Positions 11,200-28,750 of a stretch of 64,000 nt of DNA are shown piece by piece. Source of the stretch: Sphingomonas sp. SUN019 (lineage in GTDB: Bacteria; Pseudomonadota; Alphaproteobacteria; Sphingomonadales; Sphingomonadaceae); assembly GCF_024758705.1 (NCBI RefSeq), contig NZ_CP096971.1, positions 1,860,001 through 1,924,000 of the forward strand. Direction: 5' to 3'. Below the pieces are notes generated by a model. It saw nothing but the letters and a program-made list of their open reading frames with translations, did no database searches and was not told where the DNA came from. Each line of letters starts with the position of its first letter. The stretch's first letter is position 1. Both the position numbers and the translations under genes were made by a program.

Positions 11200-12645
11200 A
11201 TGAAGAACTATCCGCAGCATTACATCGACGGCCGATGGGTCGACAGCAAGGGCGGGCGCGCGCACCAGGTGGTCAATCCTGCGACCGAGGGCGTGGCGTC
11301 GGAGATCACGCTGGGCACCGCGGCCGACGTCGACGACGCCGTGGTCGCCGCGCGTCGCGCTTTCGAGACGTTTTCGCAGACGACGAAGGCGGAGCGGATC
11401 GCGCTGCTCGGCCGCGTGATGGAGGAATATGGTAAACGCGTACCCGACATCGCGGAGGCGATCGCGACCGAAATGGGCTGCCCGATCTCGATCGCAAAGA
11501 CCGCGCAGGCGGGGTCGGGGATGGGGCATCTCGGCAATGCGCTGAAGGCGCTGCAGGACTATGAGTTTCGCGAGAAGATCGGCGACAACACCGTGGTCCG
11601 CGAACCGATCGGCGTCGTCGCGCTGATCACGCCGTGGAACTGGCCGATGAACCAGATCGTCGCGAAGGTCGGTCCGGCGCTGGCCGCAGGCTGCACGATG
11701 ATCCTGAAACCGAGCGAGGAAGCGCCGACATCGGCGGCGATCTTCGCCGAGGTGATGGACGCGGCGGGTGTTCCCGCGGGCGTGTTCAACCTGGTGCAGG
11801 GCGACGGCGAAGGGGTCGGCACCGCGCTGGCGAAGCATCCCGATATCGACATGGTCAGCTTCACCGGATCGACCCGTGCGGGGATCATGGTCGCGAAGAA
11901 CGCCGCCGACACGGTGAAGCGCGTCGCGCAGGAACTGGGCGGGAAATCGCCCAACATCATTCTGGAAGGCGCACCGCTCGATCAGGCGCTGCCCGGCGGG
12001 GTCGGCGGCGTGTTGCTCAATTCGGGGCAGAGCTGCGTCGCGCCGACGCGGATGCTGGTCCACACGTCGCAGCATGACGAGGCGGCGGAGAAGGTCGCGG
12101 CGATGTTCGGCGCGAAAGCGGTCGGCGAGCCGCTGGCGGAGGGCGACCACATCGGCCCGGTCGTCAACGAAAGCCAGTGGAAGCGCATCCAGGGCCTGAT
12201 CCAGACCGGCATCGACGAAGGCGCGACCTTGGTCGCGGGCGGGACCGGGCGGCCCGAGGGCAAGGACAGCGGCTTCTACGTGAAGCCGACCGTCTTCGCG
12301 AACGTCACCCCCGACATGACGATCGCGAAGGAGGAAATCTTCGGCCCGGTGCTGGTCATCATGCCGTACCGGGACGACGACGATGCGGTGCGCATCGCCA
12401 ACGACACGCCGTACGGCCTGGGCGCGTATATCGCGGGCGATCCGGCGCGGGCGAAGAAGATCGTCCCCCGCATCCGCGCGGGCGCGGTGTTCGTCAACGC
12501 GGGCGGGCTCGCCTTCGACATGCCGTTCGGCGGCTACAAGCAATCGGGCAACGGGCGCGAGTTCGGCAAGTTCGGGCTGGAGGAGTTCCTGGAGGTGAAA
12601 TCGGTCATCGGCGCTCTGCCCGAGGACGAACCGGTCGCCGCGTAA
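11200..12645 (+). CDS. NAD(P)-dependent aldehyde dehydrogenase
   Basis: A 481-aa ALDH with all catalytic features: ITPWNWPMNQ (oxyanion Asn147), SFTGSTRAG, ELGGKSPN (Glu245) and NSGQSCVAP (nucleophile Cys279), plus EIFGPVL and FGGYKQSGNGRE near the end. It lies 22 bp after ligG in the same operon and has its own AAAGGA site. The position fits oxidation of an aldehyde made after ether cleavage, for example vanilloyl acetaldehyde from beta-hydroxypropiovanillone, or vanillin from the nearby lignostilbene dioxygenase. Which one cannot be decided from sequence. A strong hairpin at 12659-12684 follows the stop. Confidence 0.9.
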   Translation: MKNYPQHYIDGRWVDSKGGRAHQVVNPATEGVASEITLGTAADVDDAVVAARRAFETFSQTTKAERIALLGRVMEEYGKRVPDIAEAIATEMGCPISIAKTAQAGSGMGHLGNALKALQDYEFREKIGDNTVVREPIGVVALITPWNWPMNQIVAKVGPALAAGCTMILKPSEEAPTSAAIFAEVMDAAGVPAGVFNLVQGDGEGVGTALAKHPDIDMVSFTGSTRAGIMVAKNAADTVKRVAQELGGKSPNIILEGAPLDQALPGGVGGVLLNSGQSCVAPTRMLVHTSQHDEAAEKVAAMFGAKAVGEPLAEGDHIGPVVNESQWKRIQGLIQTGIDEGATLVAGGTGRPEGKDSGFYVKPTVFANVTPDMTIAKEEIFGPVLVIMPYRDDDDAVRIANDTPYGLGAYIAGDPARAKKIVPRIRAGAVFVNAGGLAFDMPFGGYKQSGNGREFGKFGLEEFLEVKSVIGALPEDEPVAA

Positions 12646-12692: not shown

Positions 12693-13301
12693 TCAGTAAC
12701 CGACCGTGAAGCGCGTGCGCGAATGGCGTGGCGTCTCGATCTCGTCGAGCAGCGCGATCGCATAATCCTCATAACTGATATGGCTCTGCCCGTCGGCGGC
12801 GGTCAGCAGCATATCCTTGCCGAGCCGGAAAGTGCCGGTCCGTTCGCCCGGGCCGAACATCATCGACGGCGAGATATAGGTCCAGTCGAGGTCGCTTTCG
12901 CTGCGCAGCATATCCAGCGCGGCGCGCGCGGGCGTCGCCTCGGGCTTGATGAAATCGGGGAATTCGGGCTGGTCGAGCAACATCTTGCCCGGCGCGATTT
13001 CCAGCGACGCCGCGCCGCCGACGACCAGCAATCGCGGGACACCCGACCGTCGCACGCCATCCAGCGCACGCGCGAAATCGGTGTTGCCGAACCGCACCGA
13101 CAGGACGGCCACGTCGTTGCCGGTCAGCGCCGCGGCGGTCGCGTCCGGATCGGCGAGATCGGCCGCCTTCCATGTCACGTCCGCGGGGGAATCGGTCGGT
13201 GCGGTACGCGCGATCGCGATGACCTGATGCCTGCGGGAGAGCGCCTCCGCGACGATCCTCTGCCCGACGTTGCCGCTTGCTCCGATGACCGCGATGCGCA
13301 T
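12693..13301 (-). CDS. NAD(P)-binding (NmrA/SDR-like) protein
   Basis: A 202-aa atypical SDR with the Rossmann start IAVIGASGNVGQRI, a nearby ADLADPD, and no classical YxxxK pair, like the NAD(P)H-binding/NmrA group (BVR-B-like). The sequence LVVGGAASLEIAPG and the C-terminal DGQSHISYEDYAIALLDEIE are typical. Start at 13301 follows GAGAG. Function may be redox sensing or reduction of a small ketone or flavin-type substrate. It is divergent from the lignostilbene dioxygenase, with a shared 19-bp operator-like site between them (13318-13336), and convergent with the ALDH. Confidence 0.82.
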   Translation of the reverse strand: MRIAVIGASGNVGQRIVAEALSRRHQVIAIARTAPTDSPADVTWKAADLADPDATAAALTGNDVAVLSVRFGNTDFARALDGVRRSGVPRLLVVGGAASLEIAPGKMLLDQPEFPDFIKPEATPARAALDMLRSESDLDWTYISPSMMFGPGERTGTFRLGKDMLLTAADGQSHISYEDYAIALLDEIETPRHSRTRFTVGY

Positions 13302-13317
13302 GGCTTTTCTCTCCATT

Positions 13318-13336
13318 TCGTTTGCTCTACATACGA
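13318..13336. promoter_or_regulatory. Operator-like palindrome upstream of lignostilbene dioxygenase
   Basis: TCGTTTGCTCTACATACGA; its complement TCGTATGTAGAGCAAACGA fits the shared pattern seen at 2352, 31032 and 32666 with one or two mismatches. It lies 17 bp from the NAD(P)-binding gene start and 49 bp from the dioxygenase start. Confidence 0.55.
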
Positions 13337-13384
13337 TATCGTCGCCGACGCCCAACGCAAGGCGATGATGTCAGGAGAGCGACG

Positions 13385-14851
13385 ATGCGCGGATTTCCGC
13401 AGACGATCCATTTCACCGGGCTCAATCAGCCGGTGCGGATGGAGGCGTCGATCCGCAACCTGCCCGTCATCGGCGACATCCCGGCCGAGATCGCGGGCGC
13501 GTTCTTTCGCGCGGTGCCCGATCCGGCGCACGTGCCGATGCACGAGGACGATGTGGTCCTGTCGGGCGACGGCATGGTGTCGCGGTTCCTGTTCGAGGAC
13601 GGGCAGGTCGATTACGATATCCGCTACGTGGAAACCGAACGCTACGTGCTGGAGCGCGACGCGCGGCGCGCCTTGTTCGGGCGCTATCGCAATCCGTTCA
13701 CCGACGATCCGACGGTCGCCGGGCGCGACCGGACCGTCGCCAACACCACGCCGGTGTGGCACGCCGGGCGCCTGTTCATGACCAAGGAGGATGGTCGCGC
13801 GTACGAGGTCGATCCCGCGACGCTCGACACGATCGGACGTTGGGATTTCTACGGCGCGCTCAGATCGGAGACCTTCACTGCGCATCCGCGGGTCGATCCC
13901 GCGACGGGCGAGATGTTCTTCTTCGGCTACGAGGCGGGCGGACTGTGCACGCGCGACATCGCTTACGGCATCGCCGACGCCGGCGGCAACCTGGTGTCCG
14001 AACAATGGTTCGAGGCGCCCTATTGCGCGAGCGTCCACGATTTCGCGATCACCGAGACACGCGCGATCTTCCCGATCTTTCCGACCACCGCGAACATCGA
14101 CCGGCTGAAGGCGGGCGGCGCGCATTGGGCGCACCAGCAGGATCTGGAAAGCTGGGTCGGCGTCATGCCGCGCTATGGCAAAGTGGACGAGATGCGCTGG
14201 TTCCGCGGACCGAAGGGCGTCTCCGCGTTTCATTTGGTCAACGCGTACGACGAGGGCGACCGGGTTCATCTCGACCTGTGCCTGACCGACACCAACGCCT
14301 TCGCCTTCATGCGCGAAGCGGGCGGGATTCATCGCCAGCCGTGGGAGATCGAGGGCGCATTGACGCGCTGGACATTCGACCTGACCAGCAACGACGACGG
14401 CTTCGTCGAGCGCCCGATCGGTCCGCCGGGCGATCTGCCGCGGGTGCGCGACGTGGATCAGGGACGGCCGTATCCGTTCGCATTCTATTGCAGCATGAAC
14501 CCGGCGGGCGGGCCGCCGTTGCCCGGCGGGCCGGTCGGCGCGGCGTTCAATGCGTTGATCCGGATCGAGCCCGACAGCGGCCGCGTCGCGATGATGACGC
14601 TGGGGCCGGACATGGCGGTGAGCGAGCCGGTGCATATCGCGTCCGCGCGTGATGGGCACGACGGCTGGCTGCTGGCGGTGGTCGACCGGCGCACCGCGGA
14701 CGAAAAGTTCGAATCCGAGCTGTGGGTGATCGACGCGGGCGACGTCGCCGCAGGCGCAGTCGCGCGCGTGCCGGTGCCGGTCAGGCTGCGTCCGCAGGTC
14801 CACGGCGCGTGGGTGTCGGCGGCGCAACTGGCGGCGCGCGCCGGGCGGTAG
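13385..14851 (+). CDS. Lignostilbene-alpha,beta-dioxygenase (carotenoid oxygenase family)
   Basis: A 488-aa carotenoid-cleavage-oxygenase-fold enzyme. The four iron-binding histidines are visible at His167 (TAHPRVD), His218 (SVHDFA), His283 (AFHLVNAYDEGD) and His473 (VHGAWV). Tyr101 and Lys134 (MTKEDG) fall at the positions that bind the 4-hydroxyl of stilbenes in lignostilbene dioxygenases LsdA and NOV1, which points to phenolic stilbenes rather than carotenoids. Such enzymes split the central double bond of lignostilbenes, formed from diarylpropane or phenylcoumaran lignin units, into two aromatic aldehydes such as vanillin. ATG 13385 follows AGGAGAG. The 3' end overlaps the convergent HAD gene by 71 bp. 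Confidence 0.9.
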   Translation: MRGFPQTIHFTGLNQPVRMEASIRNLPVIGDIPAEIAGAFFRAVPDPAHVPMHEDDVVLSGDGMVSRFLFEDGQVDYDIRYVETERYVLERDARRALFGRYRNPFTDDPTVAGRDRTVANTTPVWHAGRLFMTKEDGRAYEVDPATLDTIGRWDFYGALRSETFTAHPRVDPATGEMFFFGYEAGGLCTRDIAYGIADAGGNLVSEQWFEAPYCASVHDFAITETRAIFPIFPTTANIDRLKAGGAHWAHQQDLESWVGVMPRYGKVDEMRWFRGPKGVSAFHLVNAYDEGDRVHLDLCLTDTNAFAFMREAGGIHRQPWEIEGALTRWTFDLTSNDDGFVERPIGPPGDLPRVRDVDQGRPYPFAFYCSMNPAGGPPLPGGPVGAAFNALIRIEPDSGRVAMMTLGPDMAVSEPVHIASARDGHDGWLLAVVDRRTADEKFESELWVIDAGDVAAGAVARVPVPVRLRPQVHGAWVSAAQLAARAGR

Positions 14852-15665
14852 CGCCACCCTCGAACAGAAGCGTGGCGAGGTCGGCCACGCCCGCGATCAC
14901 CGCGGTGGGACGCTCTGCGTCCGGCACCGCCGCCCATTCCGCTGCGCTGGTCGTGCCGGTCGTGACGCCGATCCCGATCGCGCCGCCGGTGCGCGCCATG
15001 ATCGTCTCGACCTTCGGGTCGTCGCCGACCACCGCGACACGGTCCACCGGAACGCCGAGCTTCCCCGCGACGAAGCGCAGCGCGGCTTGTGACGGTTTTC
15101 CGGTGACTTCGGGTTCGACGCCCGTGACGCGCGCGACCGCACCGCCGATCGCGCAGCTATAGCCGAACGCGCGGCCCGATTTGCTGGCGAAGAACGGCAC
15201 GTCCGATGCGCTGTAGAGCGCCGCGCCGTCCAGGACCGCGGCGCAGGCGGCGTGGATATCGGCCATCGCGCAGTCGGGATGCCACGCGATATAGACCGCG
15301 TCCGCTCGCGCGTCGCCGGGCGCGCAGGTCGAAATCCCCTCTCCCTCCAGCGCATCGCGGACCCCTTCGGTGCCCAGCACCATGACGCGGCGAAGCCCGC
15401 GCCCCGCGAACAGCCCGGCGGCGACGCTGTTCGGCGTGAACAGGCGATCGTCGGGGATCGGCAGCCCCAGCGCGCGGAGCCGCGGTCCCTGTTGCGACGC
15501 CGGATACGCACTGCCGTTGGTCAGCGCGACGAACGGCATCCCGCGTCGATCCAGATCGTGTAGCAGGTCGACCGCGCCGGGCAGCACCTGATATCCGCCA
15601 AGCGCGCGGTCGCTGAGGATCAGCGTCCCGTCGAGATCGAACATCACGCCGTCCGCGGCGATCAT
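14781..15665 (-). CDS. HAD-superfamily phosphatase (AcvF-like candidate)
   Basis: A 294-aa HAD-IIA type phosphatase (NagD/4-nitrophenylphosphatase-like). Motif I is MFDLDGTLI, motif II LTNGSAYPASQQG, motif III Lys in VTGKPSQAAL, motif IV VVGDDPKVE; the large cap lies between. It overlaps the carboxyltransferase stop by ATGA, so it is the last member of the phosphorylation-carboxylation operon. In the acetovanillone system of SYK-6, as I recall it, a HAD phosphatase (AcvF) removes the 4-phosphate after carboxylation; this gene has the right family and position. The C-terminus is Pro/Ala-rich and overlaps the convergent dioxygenase gene by 71 bp. Aryl phosphate specificity is inferred. Confidence 0.83.
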   Translation of the reverse strand: MIAADGVMFDLDGTLILSDRALGGYQVLPGAVDLLHDLDRRGMPFVALTNGSAYPASQQGPRLRALGLPIPDDRLFTPNSVAAGLFAGRGLRRVMVLGTEGVRDALEGEGISTCAPGDARADAVYIAWHPDCAMADIHAACAAVLDGAALYSASDVPFFASKSGRAFGYSCAIGGAVARVTGVEPEVTGKPSQAALRFVAGKLGVPVDRVAVVGDDPKVETIMARTGGAIGIGVTTGTTSAAEWAAVPDAERPTAVIAGVADLATLLFEGGATARRAPPVAPPTPTRRGPADAA

Positions 15666-17128
15666 GCGTCCGTTTCCAGTTCCAGCCGGAAGCCGGGTTT
15701 TTCCACCGTGACGCGGGTCAGGTCGGTGCGGGCGAGCAATTGCTCGACCAGCGCCATCACCGGCCGCACCGCGGGATCATAGTCACGCGGCGCCGGACCC
15801 GCCGCCTGCACCGCATCGACCATCGCCCCCGGCATCGTCGCGCGCAGCAGAAATTCCTCATCCGATAGCTGCGCGCCGACCCGTCGCCGCAGGTCGGCCA
15901 GCGGAGCCATTTCGGGTTCCGACTGCAATTCGCGCGCGCGCGGCGACGACAGGATGCGGTCCATCACGTATGCCGCGATCGGACGGTTGGGGCGGCCGAA
16001 GCGGCCGAGCGCATAGCGCACGATCTCGTCCGGGATCGTGGCGTAGCGTTCGGCCCCGGTCACGTTCATCACCGCCTGCGTCTGCAGCATCTGCGCGAAC
16101 GGCGTCATCACGATCGGCCAGCCGAGTTCCTCGCGCACGCGGCCGAGTTCCTCGATCACCGCGCCCTCCAGATGCGGCACGCGGTGGTCGGCCAGGTGCC
16201 GCCGCATCGTTCCGACCATTCCGCCGGGCAATTGATGCCGCACATAGCCCGCGTCATAGGCCATCGGCGCACCGGTCGGCAGCCCGTCCGCCGCGGCCAG
16301 ATCGGCGAAGTATCGCCCGACCTGCGCCAACGCGTCGTCGTCGACGTCGACTTTGTGGCCCTGTTCGCGCAGGTTGCGTACGGTCCGCTCGATCGGCGGA
16401 TTGGAGGTTCCGTCGGCCGCCCCGCCGCTGGCGCACTGCAACGCCGCCACGCCCAGCGCAGCGCCCGCCAGATAGGTGCGATCGCCGAGGCCGATGGTGT
16501 TGTGCGCGTGGAGTTCGAGCGGCTTGCCGCCGATTTCGGCCAGGATCGCGGGGATCAGCGTCCGCGCGCGTTCGGGGGTCAGCAACCCGCCCGGATCCTT
16601 GATGTACAGCGCGTCGATGTCGGGGCACGCGGCCATCGTCCGCGCGGCGTCGGCGTAATGCGCGTCGTCGTGGATCGGGCTGAGCGTGAAGACGAGCGCG
16701 CCGATGACCTGCTCTCCCCCGCCCTGCTTCACCAGCCGCGCCGCCGCTGCGTTGGCGACGGCGTCGTTGGTCGGATCGGCCAGCGCAAAGCGGCGAATGC
16801 CGTTTCGGGTCAGCGTGGCGAAGGCCAGCGCCATGAATTCGGGGCTCGCGGTCTCCCATGAGATGAAGCGGAAGCCGGTCGACAGGAATTGCAGCGGGGT
16901 CGTCTGGCAGGCCGCGGCCATCAGCCGGATACGTTCCCACGGATCCTGCTGCTTGTAGCGCACCGCGACGCCCATATGGGTCGAGGTGGTGAAGTCGATC
17001 GCAGCATAACCGACGCGCTCCATCACGGGCGCGATCGACAATGTCCGCGCGGTATCGACGCCCAGCGCACCCCACAGGCATTGGTTGCCGTCGCGCAGGC
17101 TTGTCTCGACCAGGCGGATCGCGGCCAT
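15662..17128 (-). CDS. Biotin-dependent carboxyltransferase subunit (HMGL-like)
   Basis: A 488-aa TIM-barrel carboxyltransferase related to the alpha chain of oxaloacetate decarboxylase and pyruvate carboxylase subunit B. ETSLRDGNQCLWG opens the barrel, LYIKDPGGLL carries the likely active-site Lys, and LELHAHNTIGLG holds the metal-binding His-x-His. PGGMVGTMRRHL and VTPFAQMLQTQAV are typical of the post-barrel part. The start at 17128 overlaps the biotin carboxylase stop by one base (TGATG). Because it sits with separate biotin carboxylase, carrier and PEP-synthase-like genes, the acceptor is probably not pyruvate but an aryl methyl ketone such as (phospho)acetovanillone, giving a vanilloylacetate. 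Confidence 0.85.
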   Translation of the reverse strand: MAAIRLVETSLRDGNQCLWGALGVDTARTLSIAPVMERVGYAAIDFTTSTHMGVAVRYKQQDPWERIRLMAAACQTTPLQFLSTGFRFISWETASPEFMALAFATLTRNGIRRFALADPTNDAVANAAAARLVKQGGGEQVIGALVFTLSPIHDDAHYADAARTMAACPDIDALYIKDPGGLLTPERARTLIPAILAEIGGKPLELHAHNTIGLGDRTYLAGAALGVAALQCASGGAADGTSNPPIERTVRNLREQGHKVDVDDDALAQVGRYFADLAAADGLPTGAPMAYDAGYVRHQLPGGMVGTMRRHLADHRVPHLEGAVIEELGRVREELGWPIVMTPFAQMLQTQAVMNVTGAERYATIPDEIVRYALGRFGRPNRPIAAYVMDRILSSPRARELQSEPEMAPLADLRRRVGAQLSDEEFLLRATMPGAMVDAVQAAGPAPRDYDPAVRPVMALVEQLLARTDLTRVTVEKPGFRLELETDA

Positions 17129-18489
17129 CAGGCAGCGATCCTTTGGTCGAGAAAGCGCGCGAGGAACCCGGTGTCGACGCCGCCGCGCGCGAAGTCGGCG
17201 TCGGCGAGGATCGCGGTCTGGAAGGCGAGGTTGGTGGCGATGCCCTCGATCCGTGTGTTCGCCAGCGCGGCGCGGAGCCGGGCCAGCGCCTCGGCGCGGT
17301 CGGCGCCGTGAGCGATGACCTTTGCGATCATCGAATCGTAGAAGGGCGGGATGCGCGCGCCGTCGATGATATGGGTGTCGACGCGGATGCCCTCGCCGGT
17401 CGGCCAGCGCACCGTTGAAACCGTGCCCGGCGAAGGCGCGAAGTCGCGCGCCGGGTCTTCGGCGTTGATGCGGCATTCGATCGCCGCGCCAGCGCACGAC
17501 ACGTCCTCCTGTGCGAACCGCAGCCCCCGCCCTTCAGCGATCGCGATCTGTTCGGCGATCAGATCAATCCCCGTCACCGCCTCGGTCACCGGATGCTCGA
17601 CCTGGATGCGCGCGTTCATTTCGAGGAAGTAGAAGGCGTCGCGCGGGACGTCGTAGAGGAATTCGACCGTTCCCGCCCCACGGTATGACAGCCGCGCGGC
17701 GAACCGCACCGCCGCGGCGTGCAGCGCGTCGCGCGTCACTGCGGGCAAATGCGGCGCGGGGGTTTCCTCGATCAGTTTCTGGTAGCGGCGCTGGACCGAA
17801 CAGTCGCGTTCGCCGAGGTGGATCACGCCCCCCGCGCCGTCGCCCAGCACCTGCACCTCGATATGCCGCCCGGTCGCGACATAATGTTCGAGATAGACCC
17901 GCGCGTCGCCGAACGCGGCCCCCGCTTCGGCGCTGGCCATGTCCATCGTCGCGGCGAGATCGCGCGCGTCTTCGACCAGCTTCATCCCGCGCCCGCCACC
18001 GCCGCCCGCCGCCTTGACCAGGATCGGCACGCCGATCGCCGCGGCCAGCGCACGCGCTTCGTCGGGCGTGCCGGCCGCGCCGCCGGGGATTACGGGCACG
18101 CCCGCCTCCTCGGCCGCGGCGCGCGCGCGCAACTTGTCGCCGACCGCCTCGATCTGCTCGGCGGTCGGTCCGACGAAGATCACGCCCTCCGCCTCACACA
18201 GTCGCGCAAGGTCGGCGCGTTCGGACAGGAAGCCATAGCCGGGGTGAATCGCGTCGCACCCCGAGCCGAGCGCGGCCTGCACGATCGTCTCGACCCGCAG
18301 GTAACTGAGCGCAGGTTGCGCGGGGCCGATGCACAGGACGCGATCGGCCAGATGCGCGCCGAGCGATCCGCGATCGGCCTCCGACACGCCGAGTACGGTT
18401 TCGATCCCGAGCGCGCGGCAGGTGCGGATGATGCGCACCGCGATCTCGCCGCGGTTGGCGATGAACAGGCGGCGGATCGCCACGGTCAA
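17128..18489 (-). CDS. Biotin carboxylase subunit (AccC-like)
   Basis: A 453-aa stand-alone biotin carboxylase. RRLFIANRGEIAVRIIRT opens the N-terminal domain, HPGYGFLSE follows, KAAGGGGGRGMKLV is the ATP-grasp loop, ERDCSVQRRYQKLIEETP and FLEMNARIQVEHPVTE are the hallmark catalytic segments. It carboxylates the biotin of a carrier protein with ATP and bicarbonate. Start overlaps the biotin carrier gene by 4 bp and its stop overlaps the carboxyltransferase, so the three subunits are made together. Not the housekeeping AccC, which would be beside AccB and lack a carboxyltransferase partner of the HMGL type. Confidence 0.9.
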   Translation of the reverse strand: MTVAIRRLFIANRGEIAVRIIRTCRALGIETVLGVSEADRGSLGAHLADRVLCIGPAQPALSYLRVETIVQAALGSGCDAIHPGYGFLSERADLARLCEAEGVIFVGPTAEQIEAVGDKLRARAAAEEAGVPVIPGGAAGTPDEARALAAAIGVPILVKAAGGGGGRGMKLVEDARDLAATMDMASAEAGAAFGDARVYLEHYVATGRHIEVQVLGDGAGGVIHLGERDCSVQRRYQKLIEETPAPHLPAVTRDALHAAAVRFAARLSYRGAGTVEFLYDVPRDAFYFLEMNARIQVEHPVTEAVTGIDLIAEQIAIAEGRGLRFAQEDVSCAGAAIECRINAEDPARDFAPSPGTVSTVRWPTGEGIRVDTHIIDGARIPPFYDSMIAKVIAHGADRAEALARLRAALANTRIEGIATNLAFQTAILADADFARGGVDTGFLARFLDQRIAA

Positions 18490-18920
18490 TCCGGCCGGAC
18501 GAGCAGCAGCGTCTCGCCGTGTTCGACCATCTCGCCGTTCGCGGCGACGATCTCCACCACCTCGCCCGTCACGCCGGCGCGTGCGGTGTTCATCAGCTTC
18601 ATCACCTCGATGATGCCGATGATCGTGTCGGGTTCGACCCGTGCGCCGACCTCGACGAACGGCGGCTCGCCGGGACGCGGCGCGCGGTAGTAGATGCCGA
18701 GCAGGGGTGATTTTACCTCGACCAGCCCGTCGCGCGCGACGGGCGGCGGTGGCGGGGGTGCGATCTCGACTGGCGGCGGTGCGGCGCGTGGGGCGGACGG
18801 TGTAGCGCCGCTACGCACCAGATCAAGCTTCAGCCCGTCCATCTCGAGGCTCAGCCGGTCGAAGCGTGATCCTTCCAGCAAAGCGATAATGCGATCCACC
18901 TCGGCGCGGGTCAGCGTCAT
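18486..18920 (-). CDS. Biotin carboxyl carrier protein
   Basis: A 144-aa carrier. An N-terminal acidic helix region (residues 1-35) is joined by an Ala/Pro-rich linker (about 40-62) to a C-terminal biotinyl domain with IIEVMKLMN; the biotin Lys is residue 108. Layout is that of AccB-type carriers. It is tied by ATGA overlaps to the ATP-grasp gene upstream and the biotin carboxylase downstream, so it serves this operon's carboxylase. Confidence 0.9.
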   Translation of the reverse strand: MTLTRAEVDRIIALLEGSRFDRLSLEMDGLKLDLVRSGATPSAPRAAPPPVEIAPPPPPPVARDGLVEVKSPLLGIYYRAPRPGEPPFVEVGARVEPDTIIGIIEVMKLMNTARAGVTGEVVEIVAANGEMVEHGETLLLVRPD

Positions 18921-19957
18921 GGCCGTCTCCCGAACACGCCCAGCACATGCGCGAAGGGATTGTCAGTCGGTGCGGCGACGGGCGCGGTGGTGCGGTTCGA
19001 CCAGATCGTTTCGGGGCGGCTCTGCAGCAGCAATACACGGCCGTCGCGGTCGACCGCCCATTCGATGTCCTGCGCCGCGCCATAATGGCGTTCGACCTTG
19101 CGGCCGATCTCGCGCAGTTGCTGCAGTGTCGCGTCGTCGACGCAGGCGATGCGGCGGCGGTCGTCGGGCACCGCGCGTTCCTCCACGCCGCCGCTGGCGA
19201 CCGGGCGGTGTTCGATGTGCTTGTCGGAAATGTCGCGGGTGGAGATTTCGCCGGTGATCTTGCCGATCACCCAGCGGTCGGGCGTGACCTCGCCCGACAC
19301 TACGGAGGATCCCAGCCCCCACGCGCCCTCGATCGTGACGACCGATTTGTCGCCGGTCGTCGGGCTGCGCGTGAACATCACTCCGGCGACCGAGGCATCG
19401 ACCATCCGTTGCACCACCACCGCCATCGCAACGCCGCTTTCGGGAAACGCCTGTCGGCGGCGATAGGTGATGCTCTCGACCGAATAGAGGCTGCCCCAGC
19501 ATTCCCGCACGCGTGCGACCAGATCGGCGGGGTCGATCACCCACAGGAACGTGTCCTGCAATCCGGCGAAGCTGGCGTCGGCGGCATCCTCGGTCGTGGC
19601 GGATGAGCGCACCGCGACCGGCGCTCCATCGCCGCCGCACAGTTCGTGGTGCGCCGCCAACAACGCGCCTTCCACCTCGGGGGGAAGCGGCTCTTCCACG
19701 ACGCGCGTGCGCATTTCCTGCGACAGCGCGGTGACCGCGTCCAGATCGTCCGCATCGCACGTCTCGATCCGCGCGCGGACCGGCGCGCGCGCCTCCAGTG
19801 CGGCGAGGAACAGTTCGAACGCGCGCGTGGTCACGACGAAGCCGGGCGGGACCGCGATCCCCGCGCGGGTCAGTTCGCCGAGACTCGCGCCCTTGCCGCC
19901 AACGGTCGGGCGATCGGCAAGGCCGACGTCGGCGAACCACGCGATCGCCTCACGCAT
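18917..19957 (-). CDS. PEP/pyruvate-binding (ATP-grasp) subunit of a split phosphotransferase
   Basis: A 346-aa protein equal to the N-terminal nucleotide-binding domain of PEP synthase. It has VGGKGASLGELTRAGIAVPPG, VAVRSSATTEDAADASFAGLQ, AGVMFTRSP, GLGSSVVSGEVTPD and VLLLQSRPET. No swivelling His domain is present; that lies on the overlapping upstream gene. Split two-protein dikinases of this type phosphorylate phenols: phenylphosphate synthase in Thauera, AcvAB in SYK-6 and HpeHI in Rhodococcus on 4-hydroxyacetophenones. Overlaps the His-domain gene by 8 bp and the biotin carrier by 4 bp. Phosphorylation of acetovanillone is the best guess because a biotin carboxylase and a HAD phosphatase follow. 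Confidence 0.87.
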   Translation of the reverse strand: MREAIAWFADVGLADRPTVGGKGASLGELTRAGIAVPPGFVVTTRAFELFLAALEARAPVRARIETCDADDLDAVTALSQEMRTRVVEEPLPPEVEGALLAAHHELCGGDGAPVAVRSSATTEDAADASFAGLQDTFLWVIDPADLVARVRECWGSLYSVESITYRRRQAFPESGVAMAVVVQRMVDASVAGVMFTRSPTTGDKSVVTIEGAWGLGSSVVSGEVTPDRWVIGKITGEISTRDISDKHIEHRPVASGGVEERAVPDDRRRIACVDDATLQQLREIGRKVERHYGAAQDIEWAVDRDGRVLLLQSRPETIWSNRTTAPVAAPTDNPFAHVLGVFGRRP

Positions 19958-21782
19958 CCGCCAGCACCTCGTCGAGTATCGTCACCACCCCGCGGCCGCC
20001 ATCGACGCGGATGCGCTGCCCGGTGCGGATGCGCTGCGTCGCGGACCCCGTGCCGACCACCGCGGGCAGGCCGTATTCGCGCGCGACGATCGCCATGTGG
20101 CTCATCGATCCGCCGATGTCGGATACCGCGGCGGCGATCTTCTGGAAGATCGGCGCCCAGCTCGGGTTGGTGACCTGACACACCAGGATCTCGCCCTGCC
20201 GGAGCGTGCCGATCTCCGCCGCGGAGGTGACGACGCGCGCCGGTCCTTCGACAACGCCCGACGATGCGGCGAACCCCTTCAGCTCGCGGCCATCGTCGTC
20301 GCCGTCGTCGTCCAGCCAGCGGTCGAGATTCTCGCGCGTGATGCCCCACAGCATGACGATCGCAGGGTCGTCGATCACGTCGGGCACGACGCCCAGCGCC
20401 GGGGGCACGCGGTGGTCGCCCCACGCCGCGATCGCCGCCTTGCGCTCCGCGACGATGCCGGGCCAGCGCTTTGGTCCCAGCGGCGGCGATCCGCTCGACC
20501 ACGCGAGCGACAGGTCGACGATCGCGCTTTCGACCTCGTAATGCGTCAGGTGGAACACGTCGGCTTCCTCCGCGAAGAAGCCGTGGGTAGCGAGCAGCGC
20601 CCCGAATTCCCTGATCTTGTTGAAAAACAGGTTGGTGTACCAATGCTCGCAGTAGAATTTATGCCCCTCGACATAGGGGAAGACGCGGTGCGCCAGCGTA
20701 ATGAGCTGATCGTATGTGGCGCGGTCGGCGTCGCTGTCGAGCAGGTCGCGGTAGTCGGCGACCAATTGATCGCGCTCGCGGATCAGTTGTTCGACCGGGC
20801 GATCGATCGTCTCCCCGGCGCGGACCTTGGCGATATAGCCGGGCAATGCCGAGAAGGGCATCGACAGATCATCGTTCCACGACCGGTGATAGTGATAGAA
20901 GCCGTCGCCGACGTTGACGTTGAACCACGGATCGCGGCTGGCCTGAAGCTCGTCGCGCCACGCCGCCCCGCTGTTACCCTGCGCGTCCAGCCCGGCGAAC
21001 ATCTCTTCGACGCTCATCCCTTCGCCGAACGCGCCGTCGACGCCGAGTTCGACCGCACGCCGCGCGAGGCGCCGCACTTCCTCGTCGGGGCGGAATATCT
21101 CCGCCTCCATTCCGGCGACCATGCGGCTGATCGTCTGGTCCGAAATCTCGGGAAAGGCGCGCTTGCAGAAATCGAAGAAGGTCAGATACGCGCCATAGCC
21201 GAGCAGCAGGAATTCGAAATGATGCTGCCACATCCGGTAATAGCCCTCGAGCTGACGCCGGTACGTGTCGAGCAACGCATGGTTCGACGCGACGCCCTTT
21301 CCGGTGTGCGTCGTCTCGATCGGTTCCCAGTCGGGGAGCTCGACCGGCGGCAGGGCCTGCGCCTCACCGATCAGCGCCTTCATCTTGACCTTCCACTGGT
21401 CGTACAGGCGCTCCCAATGTTCGTAATAATAGAAAGCGCGCTGCTGGAAGAGCTCCTGCCGCTCGGCGATCTCGACCGGATCGGTCACCGGCACGCCGCC
21501 GATATAGACCCGGCCGTTGACGATGCGGTGGTCGATGCCCTTGGTCGTCGGCAGGACGTGGACGCGGGTGTTGAACGCCCCCAGCGCGCAATAGGCGGCC
21601 TCGGCGGTGATCATGTCGAAATGATGCATCGGCTCGGGAAAATGCATCGAATTGTAGAACCAGAAGCGCGCGTCGTCGTCGGGGCCGAATTGCGTGTAGT
21701 AGGGATAGGCCGCCTGCGCCGCCTCCGTGCCCGGCACGACCGCCACCGAACTCGGCAGCGGAAAGCTTTTCTGCCCGGTCAT
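19950..21782 (-). CDS. PEP-utilising-enzyme mobile-domain subunit of the split phosphotransferase
   Basis: A 610-aa protein whose C-terminal approximately 90 residues are the phosphohistidine swivelling domain, with GGSMSHMAIVAREYGLPAVV (His562) and GQRIRVDGGRGVVTIL. The first 450 residues are rich in aromatic residues (FWFYNSMHFPEPMHHFD, FYYYEHWERLYDQW) and probably bind the aromatic substrate, as in related phenol- and rifampicin-type phosphotransferase subunits. It would take phosphate from ATP via the ATP-grasp partner at 18917-19957 and pass it to a phenolic hydroxyl. It is 10 bp downstream of a zinc ADH gene. Similar split pairs act in acetovanillone degradation. Confidence 0.86.
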   Translation of the reverse strand: MTGQKSFPLPSSVAVVPGTEAAQAAYPYYTQFGPDDDARFWFYNSMHFPEPMHHFDMITAEAAYCALGAFNTRVHVLPTTKGIDHRIVNGRVYIGGVPVTDPVEIAERQELFQQRAFYYYEHWERLYDQWKVKMKALIGEAQALPPVELPDWEPIETTHTGKGVASNHALLDTYRRQLEGYYRMWQHHFEFLLLGYGAYLTFFDFCKRAFPEISDQTISRMVAGMEAEIFRPDEEVRRLARRAVELGVDGAFGEGMSVEEMFAGLDAQGNSGAAWRDELQASRDPWFNVNVGDGFYHYHRSWNDDLSMPFSALPGYIAKVRAGETIDRPVEQLIRERDQLVADYRDLLDSDADRATYDQLITLAHRVFPYVEGHKFYCEHWYTNLFFNKIREFGALLATHGFFAEEADVFHLTHYEVESAIVDLSLAWSSGSPPLGPKRWPGIVAERKAAIAAWGDHRVPPALGVVPDVIDDPAIVMLWGITRENLDRWLDDDGDDDGRELKGFAASSGVVEGPARVVTSAAEIGTLRQGEILVCQVTNPSWAPIFQKIAAAVSDIGGSMSHMAIVAREYGLPAVVGTGSATQRIRTGQRIRVDGGRGVVTILDEVLADA

Positions 21783-21792
21783 CGGCTAATCC

Positions 21793-22794
21793 TCATGGCG
21801 CGATCAGCACCTTGCAATCGTGCGTGCGGCGTTTCAGCGCCTCGAAGCGGTCGGGGGTGTCGGCGAGCGCGATCGTGTCGGTTACCAGATGGCGCGGTTC
21901 GGCCGCGCCCGCGTCGAGCGCGTCGAGCGCGGCTTCATATTCCTGGACCGTGAAGAAGGCGGAGGTGACCAGCCGCACCTCCTTCGACAGCATCGCAAAG
22001 CTGTTGAACGTGTCGGGGCGGGTGCATAGCCCGAGCAGCAGGATCGTGCCGCGCGGGCGGACCTGTTCCACCGCCTGCGCGATCAGTCCGGGCAGGCCGA
22101 CGCATTCGAACACCACGTCGGCCTTGCCGCCCAGCGCGCGTTCCGCTGCGGCGACCGGATCGTCCACGTCGACGACGAAGCCCGACGCGCCCATCGCGAT
22201 CGCGCGGGTCTGCTGATGGTCGGCGATGTCCTGCACCACCACGTGCGCCGCACCCATGCGGCGCGCCCAGAACGCGACCGCCAGGCCGATCGGCCCCGCG
22301 CCAAGGATCAGTACGCGGTCGCCGGTACGCATCCCGCTCATGTTCACACCGTGCAGCGCCACCGCGAGCGGTTCGATGATCGCGCCGTCGGCGAGACTGG
22401 CGGATTTCGGCAGCAGCACGCACTGGTTCGGGCGCGTCACGGCATATTCGGCATAGCCGCCGCCCTGCAGCCCGAAGTGCGCGCACCACGCCGGTTCGCC
22501 CGCGAGACAGGAGGCGCATTCGCCACAGCTCGCCAGCGGGATCACTGACACCAGATCGCCGAGCGCGAGGCGTTCGACCCCGCGGCCCAGCGCGACGACC
22601 TCGCCGGCAAATTCGTGGCCCAGCACGTCGCCCGCCTTGCGCCCGTAGGTGGCGTCCTCGGTCATGTGCAGGTCCGATCCGCAGATGCCGCAGCGCGCGA
22701 CGCGGACGACCACCTCGCCGTCCTGCGGCGTCGGGTCGGGGAGGGTTTCCACCGCCAGCGGCCGGTGCAGCCCCTGCATCACCGCGGCGCGCAT
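21793..22794 (-). CDS. Zinc-dependent alcohol dehydrogenase (MDR family)
   Basis: A 333-aa medium-chain dehydrogenase. Catalytic zinc ligands: CGICGSDLH, GHEFAGEV. Structural zinc motif: CGECASCLAGEPAWC. Rossmann loop: LILGAGPIGLAVAFWARRMG. It resembles the 2,3-butanediol/threonine/sorbitol-dehydrogenase-like group. Start at 22794 overlaps the preceding ADH stop by one base (TGATG). Placed in the ten-gene operon, it could oxidise an aryl 1-ethanol or 1,2-diol side chain to the ketone that feeds the phosphorylation-carboxylation steps, but the alcohol is not known. Confidence 0.86.
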   Translation of the reverse strand: MRAAVMQGLHRPLAVETLPDPTPQDGEVVVRVARCGICGSDLHMTEDATYGRKAGDVLGHEFAGEVVALGRGVERLALGDLVSVIPLASCGECASCLAGEPAWCAHFGLQGGGYAEYAVTRPNQCVLLPKSASLADGAIIEPLAVALHGVNMSGMRTGDRVLILGAGPIGLAVAFWARRMGAAHVVVQDIADHQQTRAIAMGASGFVVDVDDPVAAAERALGGKADVVFECVGLPGLIAQAVEQVRPRGTILLLGLCTRPDTFNSFAMLSKEVRLVTSAFFTVQEYEAALDALDAGAAEPRHLVTDTIALADTPDRFEALKRRTHDCKVLIAP

Positions 22795-23915
22795 CAGCCC
22801 TCCGCCGCCATGCGCAATACCGGCTTCACCACCTGCCCGCTTTCGCTCGCCGCAATCGCGGCGTCGATGTCGGCGAAGTCGAAATAGCCGATCAGCCGCT
22901 CGAACGGGAAACGCCCGGCGAGATGGAGGTCGATGAGTTCGGTCAGGAACGGGCCGACGTCGCTGTCGCCGCCGAGGATGCCCTTTACCGTCCGCCCGCC
23001 GCCCATGAACTGGCTTTCGTTGAAGACCAATTTGTCGGCCGGGTCGGACGCGCCGACGATGCCGAGCACGCCCTTTGGCGCGAGCAGGCCGAACGCATCC
23101 TCGATCACGCGTTTGATGCCGGTCGTGTCGAACGCATAGCCGACCCCCGTGGGGCAGAGGTCGCGGATCTTCGCGGGCGCATCCGCCTTGCCGTTGAACG
23201 CGTGCGTCGCGCCGAGCTCGCGCGCGAGCGCCAGCCGGTCGTCGTTCACGTCGACCGCGATGATCGGGTCCGCGCCGGCCACCTTCGCCGCCATGATCGC
23301 CGCCATCCCGACGGTTCCGGTGCCGAACACGACGATCGGCAGCCCCGCGCGCACCTTCATGCTGCGCAGCACCGCGCCCGCGCCGGTCATCAGCCCGCAG
23401 CCGATCGGCGCGAGCTGTTCCAGCGGCAGGTGCGCCGCGCGATCGGGCACGCGGACGACGTTGCGCTGGTGCGCGATCGCGTGCGTCGCGAACGCCGACT
23501 GGCCGAAGAAATTGGCGTTCATCGCCGCGCCGTCCGCGAACATCGTCGGCGTGCCGTCGGCGCGTGTTCCGGCCCAGTTTTCTGGGAAGAAATTGTAGCA
23601 ATAGGTCGGCGCGTCGACGTCGCAGCTGGGACAATGACCGCAGCTGTTGAAACTCATCACGACGCGGTCGCCGGGTTTCGCGACGGTCACCTCTGCGCCG
23701 ACCGCCTCGACGATGCCAGCGCCCTCATGGCCCAGCACGACCGGCAGCGGTACGGGCAGTTGCCCGTCGCGCACCGCCAGATCGGTGTGGCAGATGCCGC
23801 ACGCGACGATGCGGATGCGCAGCTCGTCGGCGCGCAGCTCGTCGAGTTCGACCGTCTGGATCGCAAACGGCTGATCCTTGCCGCGGCAGATCGCGGCCTG
23901 TGCCCGGGTCGTCAT
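22794..23915 (-). CDS. Zinc-dependent alcohol dehydrogenase (aryl-alcohol/class III-like)
   Basis: A 373-aa zinc ADH of the long-chain group that includes aryl-alcohol and S-(hydroxymethyl)glutathione dehydrogenases. [13 protein letters not shown] and GHEGAG give the catalytic zinc site, [15 protein letters not shown] the structural zinc, and [20 protein letters not shown] the NAD fold. The first N-terminal segment [19 protein letters not shown] is typical of benzyl-alcohol dehydrogenases. It starts 1 bp after the SDR stop and overlaps the next ADH. Role probably benzylic or side-chain alcohol oxidation. A formaldehyde/GSH-dependent role is less likely because the class III GSH motif is not obvious. 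Confidence 0.86.
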
Positions 23916-23916
23916 G

Positions 23917-24756
23917 TCAATCCAGTGGCTTGACGGGGCCGAGCTGCATCCCGCCGTCGATCATCACATGGCTGCCGGTCATGTAGCTCGACGCGTCGGA
24001 GGCGAGCAGCAAAGCGAGCGGCTTGATCTGGTGCGTCTCCGCGACGCGGCCGACCGGCACCAGTTCGTCCCACGCTTTCCGCGCAGCCGGATTCTTCTTC
24101 AGCCAGCCGCCGCCGATGTTGGTGACGAACGGCCCCGGCGCGATCGCGTTGACGCGGATGCCATAGGCGGCGAGTTCGAACGCGGCGTGGCGCATGAAAT
24201 GCTTCACCCCGGCCTTCGCCGCCATGTACGGCACGCCGACGATCGCCTCGTTCACCTCCGCCGCGTTCGACGAGGTGCAGACGATCGATCCGCCGCGACG
24301 ATGCGCGTTCGCCTTCATCACGCGCGCCGCTTCGCGCACGGTATGGAACACGCCGGTCAGGTTGATCGCGATCGAGCGGTTCCAGCGTTCGGGATCGTAC
24401 ATGTCGATCTGCCCGTCGGGATTGCGCTTGTTTTCCGGCGACCAGAAGCCGTTGCCTGCGTCCCAGCCCGCATTGGCGAACGCGATGTCGCACCCGCCAT
24501 AGGCCGCGACATGGCCATCGAAGGCGGCGGCGACCTGCGCGAGATCGCTCACGTCGCACGCCACCGCGCGCGCCTCGAACCCCTCGCCGCGCAACCGTGC
24601 CGCCTCGCGCTCCGCGCCTTCCGCATCGAGATCGGCGAGCGTCACCTTCGCCCCCGCCTCCGCCATTGCCTCGGTGTAGGCCAGCCCGATGCCAGACGCC
24701 GCGCCGGTGATCAGCGCCGAGCGTCCCGCGATGTCGAACTGGTCTAGCGTCTTCAC
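23917..24756 (-). CDS. SDR family oxidoreductase (GTG start)
   Basis: A 279-aa SDR with TGAASGIGLAYTEAMAEAG, the acceptor loop NAGWDAGNGFWSPEN, the catalytic YMAAK and the C-terminal SSYMTGSHVMIDGGMQLG. The insertion after NAG resembles that of mycofactocin-type and carveol-type SDRs. The GTG at 24756 is preferred: it forms a GTGA overlap with the stop of the cupin gene upstream, the standard coupling in this operon. An ATG at 24798 would overlap that gene by 46 bp. Likely oxidises or reduces a side-chain hydroxyl/keto group of an aromatic intermediate. Confidence 0.83.
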   Translation of the reverse strand: MKTLDQFDIAGRSALITGAASGIGLAYTEAMAEAGAKVTLADLDAEGAEREAARLRGEGFEARAVACDVSDLAQVAAAFDGHVAAYGGCDIAFANAGWDAGNGFWSPENKRNPDGQIDMYDPERWNRSIAINLTGVFHTVREAARVMKANAHRRGGSIVCTSSNAAEVNEAIVGVPYMAAKAGVKHFMRHAAFELAAYGIRVNAIAPGPFVTNIGGGWLKKNPAARKAWDELVPVGRVAETHQIKPLALLLASDASSYMTGSHVMIDGGMQLGPVKPLD

Positions 24757-25286
24757 AGGTACAATTGCTTGTTCGGCGTCAGCCCGTGTTCGCGGCAATA
24801 CGTCTCATAGTGATTCATGAACCACCACACGTCGAGCGTCTCGACGTGATTGCCGTCGCCGTCGTAGAATTCGTTCGCGCCCTGCATCCAGAACAGCGCC
24901 TTCATCCCGTTCGGATCGTCGGTGACGAGCGTGTGCGCGGTGCCCGGCGTTTCGGTGATGAAGTCACCGGGGCGGCACACCCAGTCGTATTCGAGATAGC
25001 GGAACGACCCCTCCAGCCCGATCGCCCACACCGGCCCGCGGTGCTTGTGCGTGCCGATCACGCCGGGCGATTTGATCCACAGGATGTTGCAATAGGTGTT
25101 CTGGCGCACGTCGAACGACAGATGCCGGATCGCGGCATTGTCGCCGAACGGCACCCACGGGCTCTCCGCCTCGGACGATCCGACGTACGTACCCTCCTGC
25201 CCCTTGTCGCGGATCAGGTTCAGATACGGCTCGGCGATGTCGACGATCTTGTACGCGCTCGACGGCGGCGCGGTCATGGTGGCCAT
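24753..25286 (-). CDS. DAD-like cupin (2,4'-dihydroxyacetophenone dioxygenase family), first copy
   Basis: A 177-aa cupin of the 2,4'-dihydroxyacetophenone dioxygenase (DAD)/ChrR-like family. The metal site is seen in GVIGTHKHRG and a downstream His in GTAHTLV; WVPFGDNAAIRHLSFDV and a C-terminal WWFMNHYETYCREHG are shared with the second copy. DAD cleaves the bond between carbonyl and hydroxymethyl carbon of a hydroxyacetophenone to 4-hydroxybenzoate and formate. It heads the ten-gene operon ending with the carboxylase and phosphatase, so an acetophenone-like substrate would fit the context. Its exact substrate is not shown. Confidence 0.78.
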   Translation of the reverse strand: MATMTAPPSSAYKIVDIAEPYLNLIRDKGQEGTYVGSSEAESPWVPFGDNAAIRHLSFDVRQNTYCNILWIKSPGVIGTHKHRGPVWAIGLEGSFRYLEYDWVCRPGDFITETPGTAHTLVTDDPNGMKALFWMQGANEFYDGDGNHVETLDVWWFMNHYETYCREHGLTPNKQLYL

Positions 25287-25325
25287 GATGTTCCTCGTTG
25301 ACGTGCGATAAAACGCATTTTCTAA

Positions 25326-25449
25326 ATCCTCCCCCGCCAGGGGGAGGTGCCGCCGACGGCGGCGGAGGGGGAGGTGAGCGACGACTTCGGTCGGGAGTCC
25401 GCCCCCTCCGACGCGCTACGCGCGCCACCTCCCCCTGGCGGGGGAGGAT
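25326..25449. repeat. Intergenic inverted-repeat element, copy 4
   Basis: Outer arms ATCCTCCCCCGCCAGGGGGA and complement, of the CGCCA-loop subtype also present at 7694-7894. It separates the two cupin paralogues, 40 bp upstream of the first cupin's start and 42 bp downstream of the second's stop. It may act as a processing or partial termination point between them. Confidence 0.8.
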
Positions 25450-25491
25450 TGCTTGGTGTCGCCGGCGACCGGATGTCGACGCAATCCGATG

Positions 25492-26025
25492 TCACAGGTA
25501 GAGCTTTGGATTGAGTGGGATGCCGTGCTCGCGGCAGTAGCTCTCGTAATGGTGGATGAACCACCAGACGTCGGTGGTGTCGATCAGCACGGCGTTTTCG
25601 TCGTAGAATTCGATCGGTCCCTGCATCCAGCCGAACAGCTTGCATCCGGTGTCGGTGACGAGCGTGTGGCTCTCGCCCGGCACCTCGAGGATCAATCCGC
25701 CCGGCGAGGCGACCCAGTCATATTCGAGGTATTTCACGCTGCCTTCCAGGCAGACCATCATGATCGTGCCGCGGTGGAAATGCGTGCCGATGACGCCCGG
25801 CTCCTTGATCCACAGGATGTTGGAAAAGATGCCGGTGCGCACGTCGAACGCGAGATGCTTGATTGCGGCATTGTCGCCGAACGGCACCCACGGGCTGTCG
25901 ACGTCGCTCTGCGCATCGATATAACGCCCGCCGGGGCTGAGCCGCGCAACGATCTCGCGGTGCGCGAAGGGGACGTCGACGATCTCGGCTTTCGACGAGG
26001 GCGGGGCGGTCATCACGGTGGCCAT
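25492..26025 (-). CDS. DAD-like cupin, second copy
   Basis: A 177-aa paralogue of the cupin at 24753-25286, same length, with SPWVPFGDNAAIKHLAFDV, GVIGTHFHRGTIM, ESHTLVTD and WWFIHHYESYCREHG. Differences cluster around the metal/substrate pocket (HKHRGPVWAIG in one, HFHRGTIMMVC here), which suggests different substrates after duplication. It may form a hetero-oligomer with its paralogue or act on a different side chain. It begins 68 bp after the TBDR, so TBDR and cupins may share a transcript, with the repeat in between. Confidence 0.78.
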   Translation of the reverse strand: MATVMTAPPSSKAEIVDVPFAHREIVARLSPGGRYIDAQSDVDSPWVPFGDNAAIKHLAFDVRTGIFSNILWIKEPGVIGTHFHRGTIMMVCLEGSVKYLEYDWVASPGGLILEVPGESHTLVTDTGCKLFGWMQGPIEFYDENAVLIDTTDVWWFIHHYESYCREHGIPLNPKLYL

Positions 26026-26093
26026 GGGGAGGCTCCTTTCGAGGTCGGTTGGTGGCGGGCTTACATATTATGATCGGCGCCGCCCCGGGCCGG

Positions 26094-28655: not shown

Positions 28656-28750
28656 ATCGGTTCCTCCCCAGCAGCCTCGCCCAGCGGCCTCGCTATTATC
28701 GCGATGGTCCGTGGGACTGATTCTAGGCGAGCGTTACGACGCGGTCTTGC

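Follow-up and report, generated by a model that had tools for sequence, protein, structure and literature searches.

An operon of Sphingomonas sp. SUN019 joins the acetovanillone module to a cupin-dehydrogenase block with candidate aroylacetate-cleaving cupins

Acetovanillone and beta-hydroxypropiovanillone (beta-HPV) are lignin breakdown products, and vanilloylacetate is regarded as an intermediate in the degradation of both. The genes acvABCDEF of Sphingobium sp. SYK-6 are syntenous with hpeHICBAD of Rhodococcus rhodochrous GD02, and SYK-6 reportedly cannot grow on acetovanillone without them; for GD02, the reactions of kinase, carboxylase and phosphatase have been described, and HpeE and HpeF are encoded beside the module (PNAS 2022, PMC9618137). 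In the accessible parts of the published accounts, VceB is a CoA thioesterase, another enzyme for vanilloylacetate conversion in SYK-6 is still to be found, and how Novosphingobium aromaticivorans F199, which is without VceA and VceB, cleaves vanilloylacetate is reported as still to be established. Here, we analysed a 64,000-nucleotide stretch of Sphingomonas sp. SUN019 (the window; contig NZ_CP096971.1, G000:C1:1860001-1924000 in a single-contig genome of 3.8 Mb). In this soil-type bacterium, one operon joins the known acetovanillone pathway to an iron-oxygenase-like cupin. We tentatively propose, at somewhat less than an even chance, that the operon serves the breakdown of 4-hydroxyaryl methyl ketones (acetovanillone and 4-hydroxyacetophenone, perhaps also acetosyringone) and that its cupin CUP1 and a second cupin, CUP2, cleave the resulting aroylacetate with O2.

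The original prediction, made from the sequence of the window, had described ten minus-strand genes at positions 14781-25286, and all ten open reading frames were indeed found there, tightly packed and with the predicted domains. The Pfam domains are, in order, cupin, short-chain dehydrogenase (SDR), zinc alcohol dehydrogenase (ADH, twice), PEP-utilisers swivel, PPDK_N, biotinyl carrier, biotin carboxylase, HMGL/PYC_OADA and HAD-IIA. Junctions range from an 8-nt overlap to a 10-nt gap when the SDR is read from GTG 24756 and the carboxyltransferase (CT) from ATG 17128: CUP1 and SDR overlap by 4 nt (46 nt with the mechanically assigned TTG start at 24798), SDR and ADH1 are 1 nt apart, ADH1 and ADH2 overlap by 1 nt (ATG 22794), ADH2 and HpeH are separated by 10 nt, and the remaining overlaps amount to 8 nt (HpeH/HpeI), 4 nt (HpeI/biotin carboxyl carrier protein, BCCP), 4 nt (BCCP/biotin carboxylase, BC), 1 nt (BC/CT) and 4 nt (CT/HAD phosphatase). 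In a simple scan of the minus strand from 13200 to 29800, no site resembling a terminator or a sigma-70 promoter came up. The original prediction had missed that the same strand carries CUP2 and a TonB-dependent receptor gene immediately upstream of the ten genes; the gap of 205 nt between CUP2 and CUP1 contains a palindromic repeat.

The last six genes had been assigned to the Acv/Hpe acetovanillone module, an assignment that is well supported by orthology to SYK-6 and by the HpeI crystal structure as closest match of the ATP-grasp subunit. The SYK-6 genome (taken as G228) has a single HpeH-type match at E <= 1e-50, and this locus, which served for the comparison instead of the deposited AcvA-F sequences, carries all six genes in the same order (identities in Table 1). 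The top PDB sequence match of the ATP-grasp subunit is 9GOJ (E 5e-78, best of 19 PDB sequences), which is HpeI according to a JBC 2025 paper (PMC12167813), and the HpeH swivel motif with its His562 fits the pattern T/SxxGGxxxH given there. HpeH further scores 787 bits with NF006153 (cut-off 578), and the three-part biotin carboxylase and HAD phosphatase adjoin the two-component kinase. Pyruvate or phosphoenolpyruvate (PEP) enzymes turned out not to be the closest homologues: PEP synthase models matched the ATP-grasp subunit below their curated cut-offs. The carboxyltransferase likewise stayed below cut-off with all models of pyruvate carboxylase and oxaloacetate decarboxylase, and both identities were rejected for it. 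The biotin carboxylase alone passes the general AccC subfamily model NF006367 (609 versus 597 bits). Elsewhere in the genome, a second carboxyltransferase paralogue (36%) is encoded at G000:C1:3409587-3410963. Since the reactions are reported for GD02 and the SYK-6 locus is orthologous, the step assignments are predictions transferred by orthology. Very probably, the kinase would place a phosphate on the 4-hydroxyl group, the biotin carboxylase would add a carboxyl group to the methyl carbon, and removal of the phosphate by the HAD phosphatase would then give an aroylacetate, e.g. vanilloylacetate. The acv module itself is already known.

To view the module in relatives, we kept the best 80 of 192 HpeH loci found in named genomes, with stretches of up to 10 kb on each side. 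A carboxyltransferase lies beside the kinase in 63 of these loci; 16 of the remaining 17 end at most 3.4 kb from HpeH, and one (L065) shows 10 kb without a carboxyltransferase. On these grounds, the six-gene grouping is not due to chance. By contrast, 52/836 is quoted for a broader set in an AEM 2026 paper (PMC13101465). LigM-, LigA- or LigB-type genes (O-demethylase or protocatechuate dioxygenase) occur near HpeH in 28 of the 80 loci, which fits methoxylated phenols, and the window likewise encodes LigM. The BC is often absent from the module, with no match of at least 50% in the stretch examined in 36 of the 63 CT-bearing loci (e.g. L029, L033, L043), where it may be shared from elsewhere. 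Among 295 genomes of the window's genus, only the window's own contains HpeH at E <= 1e-50; the HpeH of S. oligophenolica, a near relative of the window, is 89% identical. In several operons, a UPF0261/Tm-1-like ATP-binding protein replaces HpeHI directly before BCCP-BC-CT-HAD (L162:4462-5682, L185:6374-7597, L303:769-1989 in F199, L341:4963-6195, L342:5874-7121); it is perhaps an unrelated ketone-activating kinase and, as a guess, MarK. Plasmid pBAR1 of Sphingomonas bisphenolicum AO1 (L341) combines carotenoid oxygenase, aldehyde dehydrogenase, thioesterase, BKACE and such a Tm-1-like carboxylase operon to a ready-looking 4-hydroxyacetophenone route.

In many sphingomonads, the cupin-SDR-ADH1-ADH2 block that opens the operon is found, whole or in part, apart from the kinase. 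Genes for a TonB-dependent receptor, an MFS transporter, a glyoxalase-fold protein and an MDR dehydrogenase accompany it there and resemble the window's own set between 26 and 33 kb; the receptor gene is kept beside the cupins in relatives. The SYK-6 order is cupin, SDR, ADH1, ADH2, a benzoylformate decarboxylase-type gene, BKACE and IclR, and a DesA/LigM-type gene follows on the opposite strand. If vceA is SLG_24960 and desA SLG_25000, as we take them to be, the BKACE of this cluster would be VceA. Cupin-SDR-ADH-ADH is hence a separate conserved sphingomonad operon that is joined to the acv module in the window. The whole block heads a kinase-carboxylase operon in the window only, among the loci read (the S. 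oligophenolica operon lies outside that set), while partial linkages recur. A CUP1-type cupin sits between HpeH and HpeI in eight loci, seven of them titled as Acidobacteria-type metagenome-assembled genomes (MAGs; L076, L082, L083, L086, L092, L093, L103) and one as a Hyphomonadaceae MAG (L104). CUP1 follows the HAD gene after 62 nt and precedes SDR-ADH2 in the alphaproteobacterial locus L162, the operon that diverges from the module in L166 includes a CUP2-type gene, and L064, L069 and L084 have cupins at a distance of 2.8-6.4 kb from the module. A cupin match was obtained in 61 of 195 Novosphingobium genomes searched. When 43 genomes of this genus were searched for the carboxyltransferase, it was present in 19 of 23 cupin-bearing (48-53% identity), but in none of 20 cupin-free genomes, one of which had only paralogues of 32-36% (Fisher p 2e-8, relatedness of genomes ignored). 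Cupin and carboxyltransferase are 6-12 kb apart in 18 of these 19 genomes and on different contigs in the other (G714). In an order-wide draw of 396 genomes, all 14 with HpeH had a cupin match of at least 54%, a cupin found in 35 genomes overall. As far as we have seen, three points are new: acv is fused with the cupin-dehydrogenase operon, cupin and carboxylase are linked repeatedly, and these cupins are distinct from 2,4'-dihydroxyacetophenone dioxygenase (DAD).

But, what kind of cupins are these? The original prediction had called the cupin DAD-like, and DAD is the best PDB sequence match of CUP1; the label nevertheless did not hold. In a tree of 110 cupins and a DAD fragment, authentic DAD (4P9G) groups with 24 sequences that are 61-73% identical to it and that we named CUP3, a third gene often located upstream of CUP2-CUP1. 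The window cupins are separate from this clade and are 34% (CUP1) and 30% (CUP2) identical to DAD, with 30-39% for their clades. The iron ligands of DAD (His76, His78, His114) as well as Tyr93 and Glu108 are kept in 85 of 85 CUP1/2-type sequences. Compared to the 24 DAD orthologues, Asp63 is replaced by Asn (85/85), Pro79 by Arg (83/85) and Met156 by His (85/85); moreover, Trp61 is exchanged for Tyr or Phe (Val in 3/85) and Ser49 for Ile (Leu in 1/85). Phenol binding in DAD is assigned to Trp61 and Asp63 (PMC4219425). Tree and pocket residues together led us to reject CUP1 and CUP2 as DAD orthologues. Judged from the sequences, the substrate pocket appears changed with iron and catalytic residues retained, and the new Arg might bind a carboxylate. 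Cupins on plasmids that are annotated as '2,4'-dihydroxyacetophenone dioxygenase family' but share 57% identity with CUP1 may not be DADs either.

For the upper part of the proposed pathway, the SDR and ADHs, together with an aldehyde dehydrogenase, might bring side-chain alcohols such as beta-HPV or 1-aryl ethanols to the aroylacetate as well, which we rate at somewhat less than an even chance. CUP1, aided or paralleled by CUP2, might then convert ArCO-CH2-COOH and O2 to ArCOOH and glyoxylate on its three-histidine iron, a step with about the same chance, and LigM, the O-demethylase that the window also encodes, would take over the aryl acid (vanillate). Such a cupin step would parallel HpeE/HpeF and VceA/VceB, but without CoA. 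Originally, cupin, SDR and ADHs were all supposed to feed the ketone; this is possible for the dehydrogenases, whereas gene context in the genomes places the cupin rather on the product side. Aroylacetate is considered as its substrate because the known reactions of the six genes end with it and other operons have genes that might act on it beside the module: HpeE/HpeF in GD02, AACS with amidohydrolase in both R. leguminosarum and P. putida YC-AE1, and BKACE with thioesterase on pBAR1. Published RHA1 strains equipped with only six hpe/acv genes form beta-ketopropionates. At the thresholds used, the window has no AACS-, amidohydrolase- or BKACE-type match, i.e. no HpeE/HpeF-like gene (the GD02 proteins themselves were not the queries); other CoA ligases are encoded at 44017 and 55517, outside the operon. 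F199 (G698) carries CUP3-CUP2-CUP1-SDR-ADH2 about 11 kb from the carboxylase and gave no BKACE match in a search of its genome, and the SYK-6 cupin operon runs into the BKACE gene. We also count in favour of the proposal that Foldseek places the CUP1 model with DAD (first) and acetylacetone (beta-diketone) dioxygenase (rank 9). In the mainly open-access literature, we found no link of vanilloylacetate with a dioxygenase or of DAD with acetovanillone, which the accessible parts of PMC6307125 do not join either, and nothing on keto acids with cupins. With a little more reserve than for the proposal as such, CUP1 and CUP2 might represent a new aroylacetate dioxygenase function, a third, CoA- and ATP-free finish of aryl-ketone catabolism from sphingomonads to Acidobacteria, and a missing vanilloylacetate-cleaving enzyme of F199, perhaps also that of SYK-6.

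Several observations speak against this proposal. The cupin activity is a prediction from sequence, model and gene context, we know of no cupin that cleaves a beta-keto acid in the proposed way, and the closest characterised relative, DAD, cleaves alpha-hydroxyketones and yields formate, a reaction which the formate dehydrogenase set of the window would suit equally. A CUP1/2-type cupin is absent from 24 of 50 HpeH genomes (all 24 MAGs by title), and all eight cupin-embedded loci are MAG contigs. In four of these eight (L076, L086, L092, L093), a CoA-ligase gene, presumably feruloyl-CoA-synthetase-like from a look at its sequence, lies near HpeH, so that CoA chemistry is at hand. Pseudosulfitobacter and Halomonas have the cupin-SDR(-ADH) block without the carboxylase in the stretch seen, and SYK-6 has both cupin and BKACE. 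An anticorrelation is likewise missing: BKACE (E below 1e-75) occurs in 14/26 cupin-positive versus 11/24 cupin-negative HpeH genomes, and in Novosphingobium in 14/23 cupin-bearing versus 9/20 cupin-free genomes. Presence and absence therefore give no support to a replacement of BKACE by the cupin. AACS, amidohydrolase or BKACE neighbours were found in 0/10 loci with an in-operon cupin versus 17/90 others (p 0.20, not significant; several flanks are short and kinship is ignored), and a replacement of AACS/amidohydrolase is not supported by neighbourhood either. The distribution data do not show the cupin replacing VceA-type enzymes.

Three other explanations were weighed, and the ranking of all four is a matter of judgement. 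The strongest competitor, though in itself unlikely, is that the cupins are DAD-like alpha-hydroxyketone dioxygenases, which would cleave ArCO-CH2OH or arylglycerone ketols, formed by the SDR and ADHs, to ArCOOH and formate or glycolate in parallel to the acv branch. Such an activity would agree with the top PDB match, the retained catalytic residues and the formate dehydrogenase set, and also with a DAD-like gene of Novosphingobium MBES04 (not assigned to CUP1, CUP2 or CUP3), reported as the gene most induced by guaiacylglycerol-beta-guaiacyl ether (GGE) and lignin, with beta-HPV as strongest effector and induction also by 2,4'-dihydroxyacetophenone (PMC10866074). CUP1 and CUP2 would, however, be redundant as DADs, because the 24 CUP3 orthologues of DAD sit in tandem with them in many genomes; the phenol-binding residues are replaced, and the eight cupin-embedded loci show no match to the SDR, ADH1 and ADH2 of the window in the stretch examined. 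Formate, moreover, has another source, as it is also released by O-demethylation. Clearly less probable is a cupin block that serves only an upstream branch for C3 side chains, as in beta-HPV or similar compounds, with the aroylacetate cleaved by CoA-dependent enzymes encoded elsewhere. The response of the MBES04 cluster to beta-HPV as its strongest inducer (PMC10866074), the separate operon in SYK-6 and others, and a single divergent BKACE in the window's own genome would all be in line with this, but this leaves unexplained why acidobacterial MAGs have a cupin gene between those of HpeH and HpeI, and how F199, without BKACE, cleaves aroylacetate. Accessory or sensory (ChrR-like) proteins that do not act as the cleaving enzyme are very improbable: the Pfam match of CUP1 is the ChrR cupin domain, barely at cut-off (27 bits), whereas the three iron ligands, Tyr93 and Glu108 are invariant in the 85 sequences and the nearest folds of the predicted model are C-C-cleaving dioxygenases.

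The surroundings of the operon are summarised together with its genes in Table 1. The benzoylformate decarboxylase-type gene and its SYK-6 relative suggest an arylglyoxylate step in the same regulon. The repeat between CUP2 and CUP1 (fold of -109 kcal/mol) belongs to a palindromic intergenic family with further copies at 283-398, 4534-4643, 7696-7892 and 48175-48193; the window contains 13 pattern matches versus 0.3 expected (at most 3 mismatches, both strands of palindromes counted).

Table 1 Features of the operon and its surroundings in the window
Feature	Position	Strand	Evidence
LigM vanillate/3-O-methylgallate O-demethylase, downstream context	2414-3850	+	NF047885, 925.6 bits (cut-off 580)
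Aldehyde dehydrogenase, context	11200-12645	+	
Carotenoid/lignostilbene dioxygenase family protein, context	13322-14851	+	PF03055
HAD-IIA phosphatase, HpeD/AcvF type	14781-15665	-	74% to SYK-6 over 86% of its length
Carboxyltransferase, HMGL/PYC_OADA type	15662-17128	-	78% to SYK-6
Biotin carboxylase	17128-18489	-	80% to SYK-6
Biotin carboxyl carrier protein (EVMKLM)	18486-18920	-	54% to SYK-6
HpeI/AcvB-type ATP-grasp subunit	18917-19957	-	67% to SYK-6
HpeH/AcvA-type substrate-binding and swivel subunit of two-component dikinase	19950-21782	-	Swivel His562 in SDIGGSMSH; 80% to SYK-6
ADH2, zinc alcohol dehydrogenase	21793-22794	-	Domain searches, junction check
ADH1, zinc alcohol dehydrogenase, benzyl-alcohol-dehydrogenase type	22794-23915	-	PDB matches 5tnx, 1f8f
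Short-chain dehydrogenase, GTG start preferred	23917-24756	-	Domain searches, junction check
CUP1 cupin, putative aroylacetate-cleaving dioxygenase	24753-25286	-	DAD match E 2e-21; separate clade; iron ligands kept; model pLDDT 92.7
Palindromic intergenic repeat between CUP2 and CUP1	25328-25447	.	Folding z -8.65
CUP2, second cupin of the same type	25492-26025	-	56% identical to CUP1
TonB-dependent receptor, likely aromatic uptake	26094-28655	-	Receptor-like sequence features; annotated TonB receptor beside a cupin; 77% in F199 locus (tblastn, L303)
MFS transporter, glyoxalase-fold protein, MDR dehydrogenase	29728-32707	-	Accompany cupin operon in relatives
NAD-type formate dehydrogenase set (FdsD, FdsA, fused FdsG-FdsB)	32991-38199	-	
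Benzoylformate decarboxylase-type thiamine diphosphate (ThDP) enzyme	40638-42242	-	Its relative comes after ADH2 in SYK-6 (L165)

Our comparison names a specific pair of small proteins as candidates for vanilloylacetate cleavage in F199. If the proposal is true, cleavage by O2 would spare the ATP and CoA that HpeE or VceA/VceB consume, and the cupin could serve as a compact building block in strains for lignin upgrading. The separation of CUP1 and CUP2 from DAD also questions the DAD-family annotation of the plasmid cupins.

Compared to AcvABCDEF of SYK-6, the window has the six genes in the same order, with 54-80% protein identity. The cupin-SDR-ADH-ADH genes, however, form a separate cluster with benzoylformate decarboxylase and BKACE elsewhere in SYK-6, but lead the acv operon in the window, where no BKACE match occurs in 64 kb. 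HpeHICBADEF of GD02 shares the two-component kinase, the three-part carboxylase and the NagD-like phosphatase; there, the operon ends with the CoA ligase HpeE and the hydrolase HpeF, whereas the window has the cupin instead, and, unlike in GD02, its BC gene precedes the CT gene. The Tm-1-like (UPF0261)-BCCP-BC-CT-HAD operons of the bisphenol A plasmid pBAR1, P. putida YC-AE1 and F199 contain the same kind of carboxylase and phosphatase with the UPF0261 protein in place of HpeHI, flanked by BKACE and thioesterase on pBAR1 and by AACS and amidohydrolase in YC-AE1. VceA, which we take to be a BKACE, and VceB of SYK-6 act on the same intermediate as proposed for the cupin, but are CoA-dependent and unrelated proteins. 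Acetylacetone dioxygenase Dke1 (3BAL), which cleaves a beta-dicarbonyl compound with O2, matches the CUP1 model in fold at 16% identity and gave no match in the PDB sequence search. DAD (4P9G/5BPX), finally, has the cupin fold, the three-histidine iron site, Tyr93 and Glu108 in common with the window cupins, but differs from them by an identity of 30-34%, a separate clade and an altered substrate pocket.

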